Virus record (IMG/VR): IMGVR_UViG_3300032048_000021
Span: 1-22,001 of that record
Length of the DNA: 22,001 nt
Direction: 5' to 3' (one strand)
Origin: a virus
Shown here: positions 6,052 to 22,001 of the stretch, piece after piece
How positions within the stretch are numbered: the first letter of the stretch is position 1
How the letters are laid out: every line of letters starts with the position of its first letter
Notes under the pieces: model-generated
Told to the model about the DNA's origin: nothing
Seen by the model: only the letters and a program-made list of their open reading frames with translations
Database searches by the model: none
Made by a program: the position numbers and the translations under genes

Positions 6052-7536
6052 GTGACAGATATTGTTGTACATCAAAAGGATGATGTATATCTGAACATTG
6101 AATGCGAGGCTGGCCTTGCACACGATTTGTCGGATTTTTTCACCTTTAGAGTTCCCGGCTATAAGTTTATGCCAGCATATCGCTCACGAGCGTGGGATGG
6201 CAAGATACGCCTATTTAATGCCTTCGGTGGTGAACTGTATGTTGGGTTATTGCCGTATGTTGTCGAATTCGCTGAACGTAGAGATTTAACGATACAAGTT
6301 CCACCTTTGGTCGCTCAAACGACTATTGAGGAAACTGTCGAATTTTTTAGTGGTCTTGACCCTCACGTGGCAGGCGAGAAGATTGTACCATACGATTTTC
6401 AGGTGTCCTCTGTACATCACGGAATCAACCATAAGCGGGCTTTGATGATATCGCCCACTTCTTCTGGTAAGTCTCTGATGATATACGCACTGGTCAATTG
6501 GTATCTGTATCATATTGGTGAACTGCGAAAAATATTGATTGTGGTGCCGACCACGTCACTAGTAGAGCAATTGTACAAGGATTTTGAGGACTATACGACT
6601 GGTTCGGAGTGTGAATATACCGCCGATATGGCGCATAGAATATACTCCGGGAAAGAAAAAATTACTGACAAGCGTGTGGTTATTACCACGTGGCAGTCTA
6701 TATACAAACTAAAGAAAGATTGGTTCAAACAATTTGGTGCTGTAATCGGAGACGAAGCACATAATTTTAAGGCCAAATCGCTTACTTCCATTCTGACAAA
6801 AATGACAGAGTGTGAATATAAGTTCGGATTTACTGGTACCCTGGACGGTACCCAAACACACAAGTTAGTTCTTGAGGGTCTATTTGGTCCCATACACAAA
6901 GTTACGACAAGCAAAGAACTGATGGACAAGGAAACGATTGCTAAGTTACATATCGAAGCGGTCACCTTGGGATATACAGATGAAGAAAAGAAAGAAGTGA
7001 AGCAGATGATTTATGCGGATGAAGTAAACTTCCTTATAAATCATCCGAAACGGAATAAGTTTATTTGTGATTTGGCATTGTCCAGAGAAACGAATACGCT
7101 TGTACTTTACCAATACGTAGAAAAACACGGTAAGAAATTGTTCGAGGCTATAAAGACCAAGGACCCTAAACGACCAGTATTTTTTGTGTCTGGTGAAATT
7201 AAAACAGAAATACGGGAGGAGATACGTGCAATTACAGAAAAGTCTACAAACGCTATTATCGTGGCTAGTTACGGCACTTTTTCTACTGGTATTAATATCA
7301 GGAACCTTCATAATATTATCTTTGGTCATCCTGCTAAGTCTAGGATTAGGAATCTTCAGTCTATCGGCCGTGTCCTTAGAAAAGATGAAGGAAAGATTAG
7401 AGCAACGCTATTTGACATAAGTGATGATTTGAGTTGGAAGAAACACAAGAATTTTTCGCTACGCCATTTCTTTGAACGAGTCAAAATATACAATAGCGAG
7501 AAATTCGATTATAAATTAAGGAGCATAAAATTATGA
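6052..7536 (+). CDS. uvsW: UvsW RNA-DNA / Holliday-junction helicase
   Basis: UvsW is an SF2 helicase that remodels R-loops, stalled forks and branched recombination intermediates in T4. The 494-residue protein starts with the UvsW N-terminal domain (PGYKFMPAYR.R.WDGKIRLF, about 35-55). Helicase motifs follow: PTSSGKS (Walker A, 135-141), DEAH (234-237), GFTGTLDGT (about 259-267), ASYGTFSTGIN and QSIGRVLRK (motif VI). GTG at 6052 is chosen because the next in-frame Met lies inside the conserved N-terminal domain. AAGGAG at about 6034-6039 lies 12 nt upstream within uvsY. Its stop overlaps the next ATG (ATGA). Confidence 0.95.
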   Translation: MTDIVVHQKDDVYLNIECEAGLAHDLSDFFTFRVPGYKFMPAYRSRAWDGKIRLFNAFGGELYVGLLPYVVEFAERRDLTIQVPPLVAQTTIEETVEFFSGLDPHVAGEKIVPYDFQVSSVHHGINHKRALMISPTSSGKSLMIYALVNWYLYHIGELRKILIVVPTTSLVEQLYKDFEDYTTGSECEYTADMAHRIYSGKEKITDKRVVITTWQSIYKLKKDWFKQFGAVIGDEAHNFKAKSLTSILTKMTECEYKFGFTGTLDGTQTHKLVLEGLFGPIHKVTTSKELMDKETIAKLHIEAVTLGYTDEEKKEVKQMIYADEVNFLINHPKRNKFICDLALSRETNTLVLYQYVEKHGKKLFEAIKTKDPKRPVFFVSGEIKTEIREEIRAITEKSTNAIIVASYGTFSTGINIRNLHNIIFGHPAKSRIRNLQSIGRVLRKDEGKIRATLFDISDDLSWKKHKNFSLRHFFERVKIYNSEKFDYKLRSIKL

Positions 7537-7877
7537 GTGAAGCAAACGGAAAAGATTTTAAGTCATATAAGGGAGTTGTCCATCTCAAACACACTGGTAC
7601 AGAATTGATTACCGATGTCGTATCGCTATCGGAGGAGGGGAATTTCGTGACGGTGAAGAATCCCTGCTATCTTCAGTCTATGGCCACGGAGGAGGGGAAG
7701 AGCCAAATGGCCCTGGTCCCGTTTCTGATGACCACAAAGGAGGATTCCGTACATTTACCCCTAGGAGACATACTTTTCATCTCGGAATGTCGCCAGGACG
7801 TTGCGGAACAGCATACGCAAATGTTCTCATCCGTTATCCTGCCGAAAACTGGTAGCAAAAGCAAAATAATTATGTAA
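7533..7877 (+). CDS. Small Sm-like (LSm-fold) candidate protein (114 aa)
   Basis: It is translationally coupled to uvsW through an ATGA overlap. The segment HLKHTGTELITDVVSLSEEG followed by FVTVKNPCYLQ (about 17-47) looks like the strand pattern of Sm/LSm folds: a ligand-binding loop, 'E-x-I-x-D-V', then 'V-x-V-K-N-P'. The protein then has ALVPFLM and ends with a Gln/Phe-rich helix (AEQHTQMFSSVI). From memory, similar small proteins occur in marine T4-like phages. The fold assignment is tentative and no catalytic residues are seen. It lies directly upstream of the structured RNA region. Confidence 0.5.
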   Translation: MSEANGKDFKSYKGVVHLKHTGTELITDVVSLSEEGNFVTVKNPCYLQSMATEEGKSQMALVPFLMTTKEDSVHLPLGDILFISECRQDVAEQHTQMFSSVILPKTGSKSKIIM

Positions 7878-7894
7878 AAAGATGGTTTTTGGGG

Positions 7895-7924
7895 TTGACA
7901 GCGTATATATAAAAATGCTATAAT
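7895..7924 (+). promoter_or_regulatory. Sigma-70-type promoter driving the non-coding RNA region
   Basis: TTGACA (7895-7900) and TATAAT (7919-7924) are 18 bp apart, with transcription expected near 7931. No open reading frame of note follows for about 640 bp. The 19 bases ending in the -35 box differ at one position from the same stretch at the CobS promoter (15732-15750). Confidence 0.85.
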
Positions 7925-8231
7925 GTCTATTAACATTTGTACATATGGCCACCGTGAGCCAATCACGGATTCCACCTGAAACGAGAAACTCAGGAAGTAG
8001 CCTTTGGTGAAGTGAGCAGACTATAATATTCGACACACTGAATTGAGGTCTGTGTATTGATGTCCCGTACAAGGACTAGATATGCGAAAGTAATCCGGTC
8101 AGGACACACCATATATTGGTCCAGTCCACTAGAGAAGAGTGAATCGACACTCTGTGGCCACCAGGAATAAGTCTTTTTGACTTCGGTAACCTGGCTCTAT
8201 AGTATAGTTGTATCTCCTCTCCTCAACCTAC

Positions 8232-8369
8232 TTGAACTTGACTATTTCTAGTGTATCTAAATACTTAATATACCTAAATGATGGAAACTGCGAAAGGACG
8301 AAGTCCTTGAGCAATTCTGTGACGAGCGAAGCGAGGAACAGAATGAACCAAATGAAGTTGAACTTGACT
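8232..8369 (+). repeat. 12-bp direct repeat inside the structured RNA region
   Basis: TTGAACTTGACT occurs at 8232-8243 and 8358-8369. The copies flank the segment holding the 8289-8313 and 8314-8344 hairpins. They cannot pair with each other. They may reflect duplication or two equivalent binding or pairing sites. Confidence 0.75.
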
Positions 8370-8423
8370 GATATCCTTTAAGCGTTTGACACCGCTGGAT
8401 AACCACACCTTGATGTTTTCCGA

Positions 8424-8442
8424 CTACATTTGGCCAGTGTAG
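8424..8442 (+). other. Hairpin with 9-nt palindromic loop (kissing-loop candidate)
   Basis: CTACA (8424-8428) pairs with TGTAG (8438-8442) and displays a nine-base loop whose central six bases, TGGCCA (8431-8436), are self-complementary. Two bases flank the palindrome on the 5' side and one on the 3' side, the same arrangement as the HIV-1 dimerisation-initiation loop. A second hairpin, 8442-8454, follows directly and shares one G. Confidence 0.6.
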
Positions 8443-8513
8443 GTGACTCTCACCCTACGGGTTCGAGGGCTCACTCCGTTCGCCTATTCCATTAAAATAA
8501 ATACATAAAAGAC

Positions 8514-8542
8514 TTGACTTTGCTGGTCTTTCCGTGTATAAT
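8514..8542 (+). promoter_or_regulatory. Sigma-70-type promoter for gp55-gp47
   Basis: TTGACT (8514-8519) and TATAAT (8537-8542) are 17 bp apart. The predicted start near 8549 gives a leader of about 27 nt before gp55. Confidence 0.85.
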
Positions 8543-8575
8543 AGTACGTAATATTAACTCGAAATGGAATAGATT

Positions 8576-9226
8576 ATGGCCACAACTAAGAGAAACATCA
8601 AACGGCGTTCAACCGAGATTCACGAACCAGTTGATAAAGACAACACGAACCACTATATCAACAACAAAGAATTCCTGAGAGCATTGGTTGAATATCAGGA
8701 AGACATTGTAAACTGCGAAAAAGCAGGAAAACCCAAACCCTACGTCACTGAATACATTGCTATGTGTTTCCTACAGATAGCACAGAGATTATCCTACCGA
8801 CCCAATTTCATTAACTATACATATAAAGATGATATGATATCAGACGGTCTGGAGAATTGTCTTGCGTATATGCACAATTTCAATCCCGAAAAGAGTACGA
8901 ATCCTTTTGCATATTTTACACAGATAATATACTACGCATTCCTAAGGCGGATTCAAAAGGAAAAGAAACAACAGTACGTCAAGTATAAATATTTTGACCA
9001 GAAGGCTGGATTTGAGCAACTGGATGCACTACAAGAACACGATAAAGAGTCCTTCGATTTCATCAATGAGCGAGGCTCTGTCGATTTTCATACCCATATA
9101 AAGGAGTTCATTGACGATATGGAAAGAAAAGAGAAGGAAAAGAAGTCCAAGCGAGAACTGAAGAAAGCAGAGAAAGAAGCCAAACAGACGGAAACCAAGA
9201 ATAATCTTGAGTTCTTTTACCAATGA
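8576..9226 (+). CDS. 55: Late-transcription sigma factor gp55
   Basis: gp55 replaces the host sigma factor and directs RNA polymerase to TATAAATA late promoters, activated by the DNA-loaded clamp gp45. The 216-residue protein matches T4 gp55 (185 aa) in YINNKEFLRAL, IAMCFLQIAQRLS, the DDMISDGLENC..YMHNF core (region-2-like) and NPFAYFTQIIYYAFLRRIQKEKK. A Lys/Glu-rich linker (about 178-205) follows, then NNLEFFYQ, equivalent to the T4 clamp-binding tail SLDFLYE. The extra length is in the basic N-terminus and linker. Start-site support is weak (GGAA at about 8565). The stop overlaps the gp47 start. Confidence 0.94.
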   Translation: MATTKRNIKRRSTEIHEPVDKDNTNHYINNKEFLRALVEYQEDIVNCEKAGKPKPYVTEYIAMCFLQIAQRLSYRPNFINYTYKDDMISDGLENCLAYMHNFNPEKSTNPFAYFTQIIYYAFLRRIQKEKKQQYVKYKYFDQKAGFEQLDALQEHDKESFDFINERGSVDFHTHIKEFIDDMERKEKEKKSKRELKKAEKEAKQTETKNNLEFFYQ

Positions 9227-21339: not shown

Positions 21340-22001
21340 ATGAGTGAAAAGTTTGAGAAGATATGGTCGATACCGCATAATGACATATTAAAATGTGTGA
21401 TGGATGGGCCAGATAATTTTCTGAGGTATGATACTACTGACGGTGACGATGAAACCTTCTTCTATAACATTATCTCCAATGCAGACCAGTCCTTTCGGGA
21501 CGAAATTGACGATATATATTTTGCCAAAGATTTCCACTATAAATTCGCTGGAACTAATAGGCGATATGGTGATGTTATGGGCAAGAACGCTACTGACTTC
21601 CAAATAGATAAACTATTTGAGATACAAAAGAAATGGGGCATTCCAGCCTCGCTGACACTTAATCAAGAAACACACCCCACCGAAATTCTAATAGACCCAG
21701 CAATCAAAAAACAATTTGTCAATTTTATTGGTGAATTTTATGAGCGTGGTCTAAGAGTTTGTACCATCAGTAATATACACTTGATGGGAACTGGAATTCT
21801 ACAGAAGAATTTTCCAGAAATGAATTGGAAAAATACTGTTAATCATATTGTAGGCAATTGCCAGCAAATGGTTGACCTACACGTTCTTGGTTACAACTAC
21901 ATTCAACTTGATAGACAACTCAATAGGAATATGTCTAATCTAAGACGTATGTCCAAATTGGCAAGAAATAGGGGAATTAAAACTTTTCTCTTAGCATCCG
22001 A
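21340..22001 (+). CDS. Unidentified protein, possibly U32-peptidase-like TIM barrel (partial, runs off the window)
   Basis: ATG 21340 has GAGG at 21328-21331. At least 220 codons are open to the window edge. After a polar N-terminus come barrel-like strand and helix alternations: IPASLTLNQE, GLRVCTISN, LGYNYIQLDRQLNR and RGIKTFLLASE. The order 'asparagine loop, long-distance Leu-Gly, strand, (R/E)xLxRN helix, strand ending in E' recalls U32 peptidase/UbiU-like or radical-SAM-like barrels. No Cys cluster is visible in this part, so an Fe-S site would have to lie beyond the edge. In T4 the next gene is DNA polymerase 43, which this is not. Confidence 0.55.
   Translation, partial: MSEKFEKIWSIPHNDILKCVMDGPDNFLRYDTTDGDDETFFYNIISNADQSFRDEIDDIYFAKDFHYKFAGTNRRYGDVMGKNATDFQIDKLFEIQKKWGIPASLTLNQETHPTEILIDPAIKKQFVNFIGEFYERGLRVCTISNIHLMGTGILQKNFPEMNWKNTVNHIVGNCQQMVDLHVLGYNYIQLDRQLNRNMSNLRRMSKLARNRGIKTFLLAS

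Follow-up and report, generated by a model that had tools for sequence, protein, structure and literature searches.

A conserved, pseudoknotted non-coding RNA next to the late sigma factor gene of uncultured T4-like phages

Abstract

A 698-nucleotide gap in the genome of an uncultured T4-like myovirus encodes a conserved structured RNA. The RNA has a secondary structure with pseudoknots that is supported by covariation, conserved promoters, a single copy per phage contig and no open reading frame, and in some relatives it occupies other genomic positions. The evidence from sequence comparison favours its assignment to a new class of phage-encoded ornate RNAs that is absent from Rfam 15. From the window sequence alone, this gap had been proposed to hold a large structured non-coding RNA driven by a strong promoter of its own; the homologues, the covariation and the conserved promoters now support this proposal.

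Results and discussion

The gap upstream of gp55 does not encode a protein

The analysed stretch of DNA, referred to here as the window, is 22,001 nucleotides (22 kb) long and originates from an uncultured T4-like myovirus, the gp23 of which is 53% identical to those of pelagiphage HTVC008M and Methylophilales phage Melnitz. The gap spans positions 7878–8575, between the preceding open reading frame, which stops at 7877, and gp55, which begins at 8576. The profile match of gp55 (Table 1) bears out the expectation that the gap lies just before the gene of the late sigma factor. No plausible gene was found in the gap on either strand. The gap was originally described as the only geneless stretch, which holds for the interior of the window; positions 21608–22001 also lack a listed complete open reading frame, but they form the window edge. 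No open reading frame is conserved among 37 homologous cores of the RNA: a single frame in a single core is open throughout, and the lengths of the cores are spread evenly across the three mod-3 classes. Therefore, the interval is not coding.

Relatives share an eleven-helix core

Relatives were collected from IMG/VR, where a scan with the gp55 protein identified 80 loci and a scan with the Sm-like protein encoded upstream of the gap identified seven more. The order uvsW – Sm-like gene – gap – gp55 is kept in more than 50 of these loci, most of the gaps can be aligned to that of the window as DNA, and conservation of the gap extends to at least 41 distinct relatives. Additional copies were obtained from DNA-pattern scans of the core; the collections searched consist mostly of fragments. 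Nine pattern hits (L091, L093, L100, L105, L106, L107, L109, L112 and L120) were recognized as chance matches upon sequence inspection, and five others (L147, L155, L159, L165 and L170) were rejected because they did not match the covariance model. This model, R1, was built from the core and recovers 47 of the 47 collected copies with E ≤ 1.5e-26, a count that includes the training sequences, which match by construction. Each long phage contig (61–124 kb) contains a single copy of the RNA.

The minimum free energy of the single-sequence fold of positions 7926–8516 is −161 kcal/mol (z = −2.44), and one of 100 shuffled sequences folds as well. Because this is only mildly unusual, counts of hairpins alone are weak evidence and would not settle whether the RNA is structured. 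The small advantage over shuffled sequences would suit a decayed gene or the chance folding of a spacer; however, such an origin is refuted by the conservation and covariation of the pairs, and we give it practically no weight. The structure of 48 nested pairs was derived by hand on an alignment of 31 cores (A1), in which 97.4% of the cells are paired and 31 pairs have changes on both sides, in 240 cells. By contrast, when the partners were slid by one to three columns as a control, 29–38% of the cells were paired and 5–10 pairs had changes on both sides. In 43 distinct sequences, standard pairs occupy 98.6% of the 2,175 cells of a set of 52 pairs, and 37 of the 52 pairs contain compensatory changes, compared to 32–39% paired cells and 6–10 pairs with compensatory changes in the slid controls. 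Fitch parsimony on the 48 nested pairs of 31 sequences counts 90 double-compensatory events, as opposed to 1–7 in the slid controls, on a tree that was built from the RNA sequences themselves. The excess of compensatory changes over the controls, together with the lack of a coding signal, identifies a structured non-coding RNA rather than a decayed gene. The covarying helices differ in part from the perfect hairpins listed in the original prediction, and the hairpins of the 3′ part are clade-specific.

Table 1 Features of the RNA locus in the window
Feature	Positions	Strand	Basis or remark
Sm/LSm-like protein, divergent T4-GC139 ('methylamine utilization') family, phrog_471/phrog_527	7533–7877	+	AlphaFold, Foldseek, profile search, PHROGs
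Sigma70 promoter of the RNA, early-type, TTGACA-18-TATAAT, TG before −10	7895–7924	+	Consensus match, 12/12
5′ H-type pseudoknot (UGGC 7946–7949/GCCA 7958–7961; CCGUGA 7952–7957/UCACGG 7963–7968)	7946–7968	+	Window clade only
Conserved core, 11 helices	7971–8200	+	Covariance model R1, covariation counts, parsimony count
P1	7975–7979/7990–7994	+	
P2	8000–8002/8006–8008	+	
P3	8016–8021/8048–8053	+	
P4	8028–8031/8040–8043	+	
P5	8054–8057/8082–8085	+	
P6	8062–8065/8073–8076	+	
Core pseudoknot, GGUC/GGCC, crosses P10	8097–8100/8156–8159	+	Unbiased mutual-information scan of R1 alignment
P7	8102–8105/8124–8127	+	
P7a	8108–8110/8118–8120	+	
P10, encloses P8 and P9	8130–8134/8195–8199	+	
P8	8136–8140/8149–8153	+	
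P9	8161–8165/8190–8194	+	
Variable hairpin-rich 3′ domain, reaching to the next promoter	8201–8513	+	Core-end-to-promoter distances, motif
Second sigma70 promoter, TTGACT-17-TATAAT, gives gp55 its own start	8514–8542	+	Consensus match, 11/12
gp55, late sigma factor	8576–9226	+	phrog_234, E = 8.9e-60

Pseudoknots and the variable 3′ domain

The pseudoknot of the core can form in all 43 distinct sequences. Two of its four pairs contain compensatory changes (17 and 7 cells), with G-C replaced by U-A, A-U and C-G. Three rows of the alignment lack the letters of P3–P6, which suggests that some lineages can do without this arm. The cores of L034, L036 and L041 are shortened and have much lower R1 scores of 100–109 bits. 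In the window, AGTGAGC of the core (8011–8017) is complementary to GCTCACT (8469–8475) near the 3′ end of the RNA, and similar complements are present in several relatives and absent from others.

In relatives that have the 5′ pseudoknot, its stems are exchanged as units: UAUCC/GGAUA, UGAGG/CCUCA and UAACC/GGUUA for one stem, and CUGUG/CACAG, GUCUAG/CUAGAC and CCUCG/CGAGG for the other. The 3′ domain is far less constant, with 147–585 nucleotides separating the end of the core from the next promoter in relatives. In L111, it is reduced to almost nothing, and the core is followed directly by the gp55 promoter. With so little conservation in this domain, the functional RNA can be assigned only an approximate length. 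In the window and in two long phage contigs, the motif CGAAGYGAG/CTCRCTTCG is confined to the RNA region; a third long contig does not contain it. Conserved long-range pairing within the 3′ domain was considered; it is strong only in some clades, and therefore no such pairing is claimed for the window. In the 3′ domains of L027, L032, L042 and L044, two separate hairpins contain complements of 12–20 nucleotides (TCTAACGAACGAAGTGAGTT of L042 is an example); a long-range or kissing interaction between them could form and would be specific to these clades.

The RNA and gp55 have separate promoters

The near-consensus promoter that was predicted at the start of the interval matches the sigma70 consensus completely, and the start of the transcript is predicted from it near position 7931. 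Both this promoter and that of gp55 are present in 39 of the 41 distinct homologous intergenic regions, with the gp55-proximal one retained in all 41, and the distance between the two varies from 398 to 858 nucleotides among relatives. A search for a terminator between the RNA and gp55 found none that was convincing. Since the RNA is located just upstream of gp55 in most of the phages and is not followed by a clear intrinsic terminator, transcription may read through into gp55.

Near-perfect sigma70 promoters occur at nine positions of the window (5602, 7895, 8514, 10421, 12250, 14707, 15745, 17945 and 19841), in each case on the + strand, and each of two long relatives contains 16. The sequence TATAAATA, which we take to be the T4 late-promoter consensus, is located upstream of the RNA in nine of 37 leaders, including those of L111, L095 and L121, in several cases within about 15 nucleotides of the core. 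Its position suggests that some lineages also transcribe the RNA late, together with gp55.

The RNA is probably not a leader of gp55

The RNA could be a cis-acting leader, that is, a riboregulator or long 5′ untranslated region that controls gp55 by read-through from the upstream promoter. Such a role would agree with its position in nearly all relatives, where it immediately precedes gp55 on the same strand, and with L111, in which the core ends about 60 nucleotides before gp55. However, the near-consensus promoter between the RNA and gp55 is never missing from the distinct regions compared, and two copies of the RNA are not followed by gp55 at all. In L167, the RNA is positioned between gp23 and a gp19-like gene, 1.2 kb upstream of uvsW, and has the promoter TTGACT...TATACT; the gene after the RNA is read from its position as encoding a gp19-like tail-tube protein. 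In L095, the RNA is antisense to its neighbours and has its own sigma70-like promoter sequence. Conversely, phages Melnitz and Syn19 (Kyanoviridae) share the gene order uvsW – GC139 – gp55 with the window, but they have only a short spacer in place of the RNA. The RNA is also absent from T4, KVP40, S-PM2, HTVC008M, Cr30, phiM12 and ICP1. The alternative positions in L167 and L095, the minimal form in L111, the single copies, and the phages without the RNA speak for an RNA that acts in trans and against a leader of gp55. Judged from these comparisons, the RNA is probably a separate trans-acting unit, and we regard control of gp55 in cis as improbable.

The gene adjoining the interval on its other side had been called Sm-like, and its product has a predicted Sm/LSm fold (AlphaFold pLDDT of 84) with 3BY7, an Sm/LSm-like protein, as the best Foldseek fold match and as a profile match (E = 6e-9). 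Nevertheless, proteins of the T4-GC139 family are also encoded by phages without the RNA, and the neighbourhood is therefore not evidence of a dedicated partner. The Sm-like protein is a weak partner candidate, and probably not one dedicated to the RNA.

A copy of the RNA in a methanotroph assembly

Blastn searches of isolate phages with the window interval, and likewise with divergent copies, produced no real match, and no copy was detected in a plasmid search. R1 did identify a full core (183.5 bits) in contig JAPYOW010000051.1 of a metagenome-assembled genome (MAG) named Methylococcaceae (L121:62-300, − strand), at the contig end and downstream of glmS; beyond this copy, roughly a thousand sampled proteobacterial genomes yielded none. 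The copy is preceded by the T4-late-type TATAAATA and not by a sigma70 site. The similarity of the MAG to its sister genomes stops at the stop codon of glmS. Two short open reading frames with weak recombinase- or HTH-like matches are located near the copy. A search of the MAG with UvsW returned only a weak helicase match, and one with Gp23 returned none, with the Gp23 control also silent. The copy may be part of an island responding to infection by a T4-like phage, or it may be a misassembly.

A small mobile element or phage satellite travelling between T4-like phages and islands in bacteria, with the RNA serving the element rather than the phage, would account for the existence of at least three phage positions and one bacterial position beside glmS, as well as for the breakpoint at the glmS stop codon and the late-type promoter of the bacterial copy. 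However, the phage copies lack terminal repeats and a dedicated mobility gene, the RNA is present in single copy with stable synteny in more than 40 relatives, and the bacterial copy, being at a contig end, could result from mis-assembly. A mobile element is thus a very improbable explanation.

Proposed role of the RNA

The reading we favour, with moderate confidence, is that of a trans-acting structured RNA whose early synthesis starts at its own sigma70 promoter and does not depend on gp55, and which acts as a folded object. The RNA would be about 230–560 nucleotides long and would comprise the 5′ pseudoknot in the clade of the window, the universal eleven-helix core with its pseudoknot, and the variable hairpin domain at the 3′ end. 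Host RNA polymerase would carry out this early synthesis, and the compact pseudoknotted fold would make the RNA stable. By analogy with GOLLD and ROOL, which are suspected of acting as folded ribonucleoprotein or oligomer objects during takeover, it may, as a ribonucleoprotein or RNA oligomer, engage a macromolecule of either the host or the phage and serve as a scaffold or decoy.

A more specific possibility is that the RNA is a decoy, sponge or anti-defence RNA that titrates a particular host RNA-binding protein, ribonuclease or defence ribonucleoprotein by mimicking its RNA. The strong early-type promoter and the highly invariant unpaired segments speak for such a function, and the patchy presence and shifting positions of the RNA in T4-like phages would fit an optional factor of takeover or counter-defence. 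However, the RNA does not resemble any known host RNA in Rfam, and a decoy overlaps with the folded trans-acting object favoured above, from which it differs only in its greater specificity. We consider the decoy unlikely. More tentatively than the favoured reading itself, it is possible that the RNA represents a new class of RNA machine: an early, pseudoknotted, trans-acting ribonucleoprotein or RNA-only assembly that redirects host transcription, translation or defence and moves within T4-like genomes, perhaps also into phage-responsive islands of methanotrophs.

To our knowledge, there are only a few large structured phage RNAs, and the function of none of them is settled. The new class has dozens of members, a comparative structure that is precisely defined and a minimal form, the core of about 215 nucleotides, that is suited to biochemistry. 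T4-like phages with and without the RNA but with equal gene order offer a clear comparison, and the role of ornate phage RNAs becomes testable in an abundant group of marine phages.

Comparison with known phage RNAs

No description of the RNA was found in the open-access literature. At gathering score, no family of Rfam 15, GOLLD and ROOL included, is present in the window or in 29 homologous loci, in agreement with the original prediction, which could not align the interval to either. At E ≤ 10, positions 7860–8600 have no meaningful match to Rfam, and none to GOLLD, ROOL, group I or II introns, RNase P RNA, tmRNA or 6S RNA. ARAGORN detected neither a tRNA nor a tmRNA in the window, and three long RNA-bearing contigs of 78–124 kb, which may be incomplete, contain no tRNA genes.

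An approximately 800-nucleotide non-coding transcript of phage ICP1, encoded between gp139 and gp140, is also derived from an Orf-less interval; it is reported to be the most abundant transcript of that phage, the genome of which has no tRNAs (PMC7567579). It is comparable to the RNA described here in size, ornate fold and phage context. However, the genome of ICP1 has no match to R1. GOLLD is a large ornate phage-encoded non-coding RNA with a pseudoknotted or multi-helix fold and without a settled function (PMC12286853; PMC7567579), which the RNA described here resembles in its size, ornate fold, phage setting and non-coding nature. By contrast, the universal region of GOLLD is at its 3′ end and the 5′ region is less conserved, whereas here it is the 5′ and middle core that all copies share, with a variable 3′ part. 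GOLLD often occurs with tRNA genes, which are not found near the RNA described here, and it assembles into a homo-oligomeric nanocage. ROOL has a complex pseudoknotted fold, a phage context and likewise no settled function (PMC12286853). The RNA shares with it the size range, the phage context and pseudoknots, one in the core and a clade-specific one at the 5′ end, a trait that is not specific to ROOL. It differs in its lack of a covariance-model match, in its location away from the tRNA islands near which ROOL is found, and in host range, since it comes from uncultured marine T4-like phages. Of the two possibilities raised originally, a divergent GOLLD or ROOL or a new class, the absence of an Rfam match, the differing layout and the lack of tRNA genes nearby disfavour the former and support the latter. 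Because the sequence model, the conserved end and the association with tRNA genes all differ, the RNA is best regarded as a new class of the kind that GOLLD and ROOL already represent.
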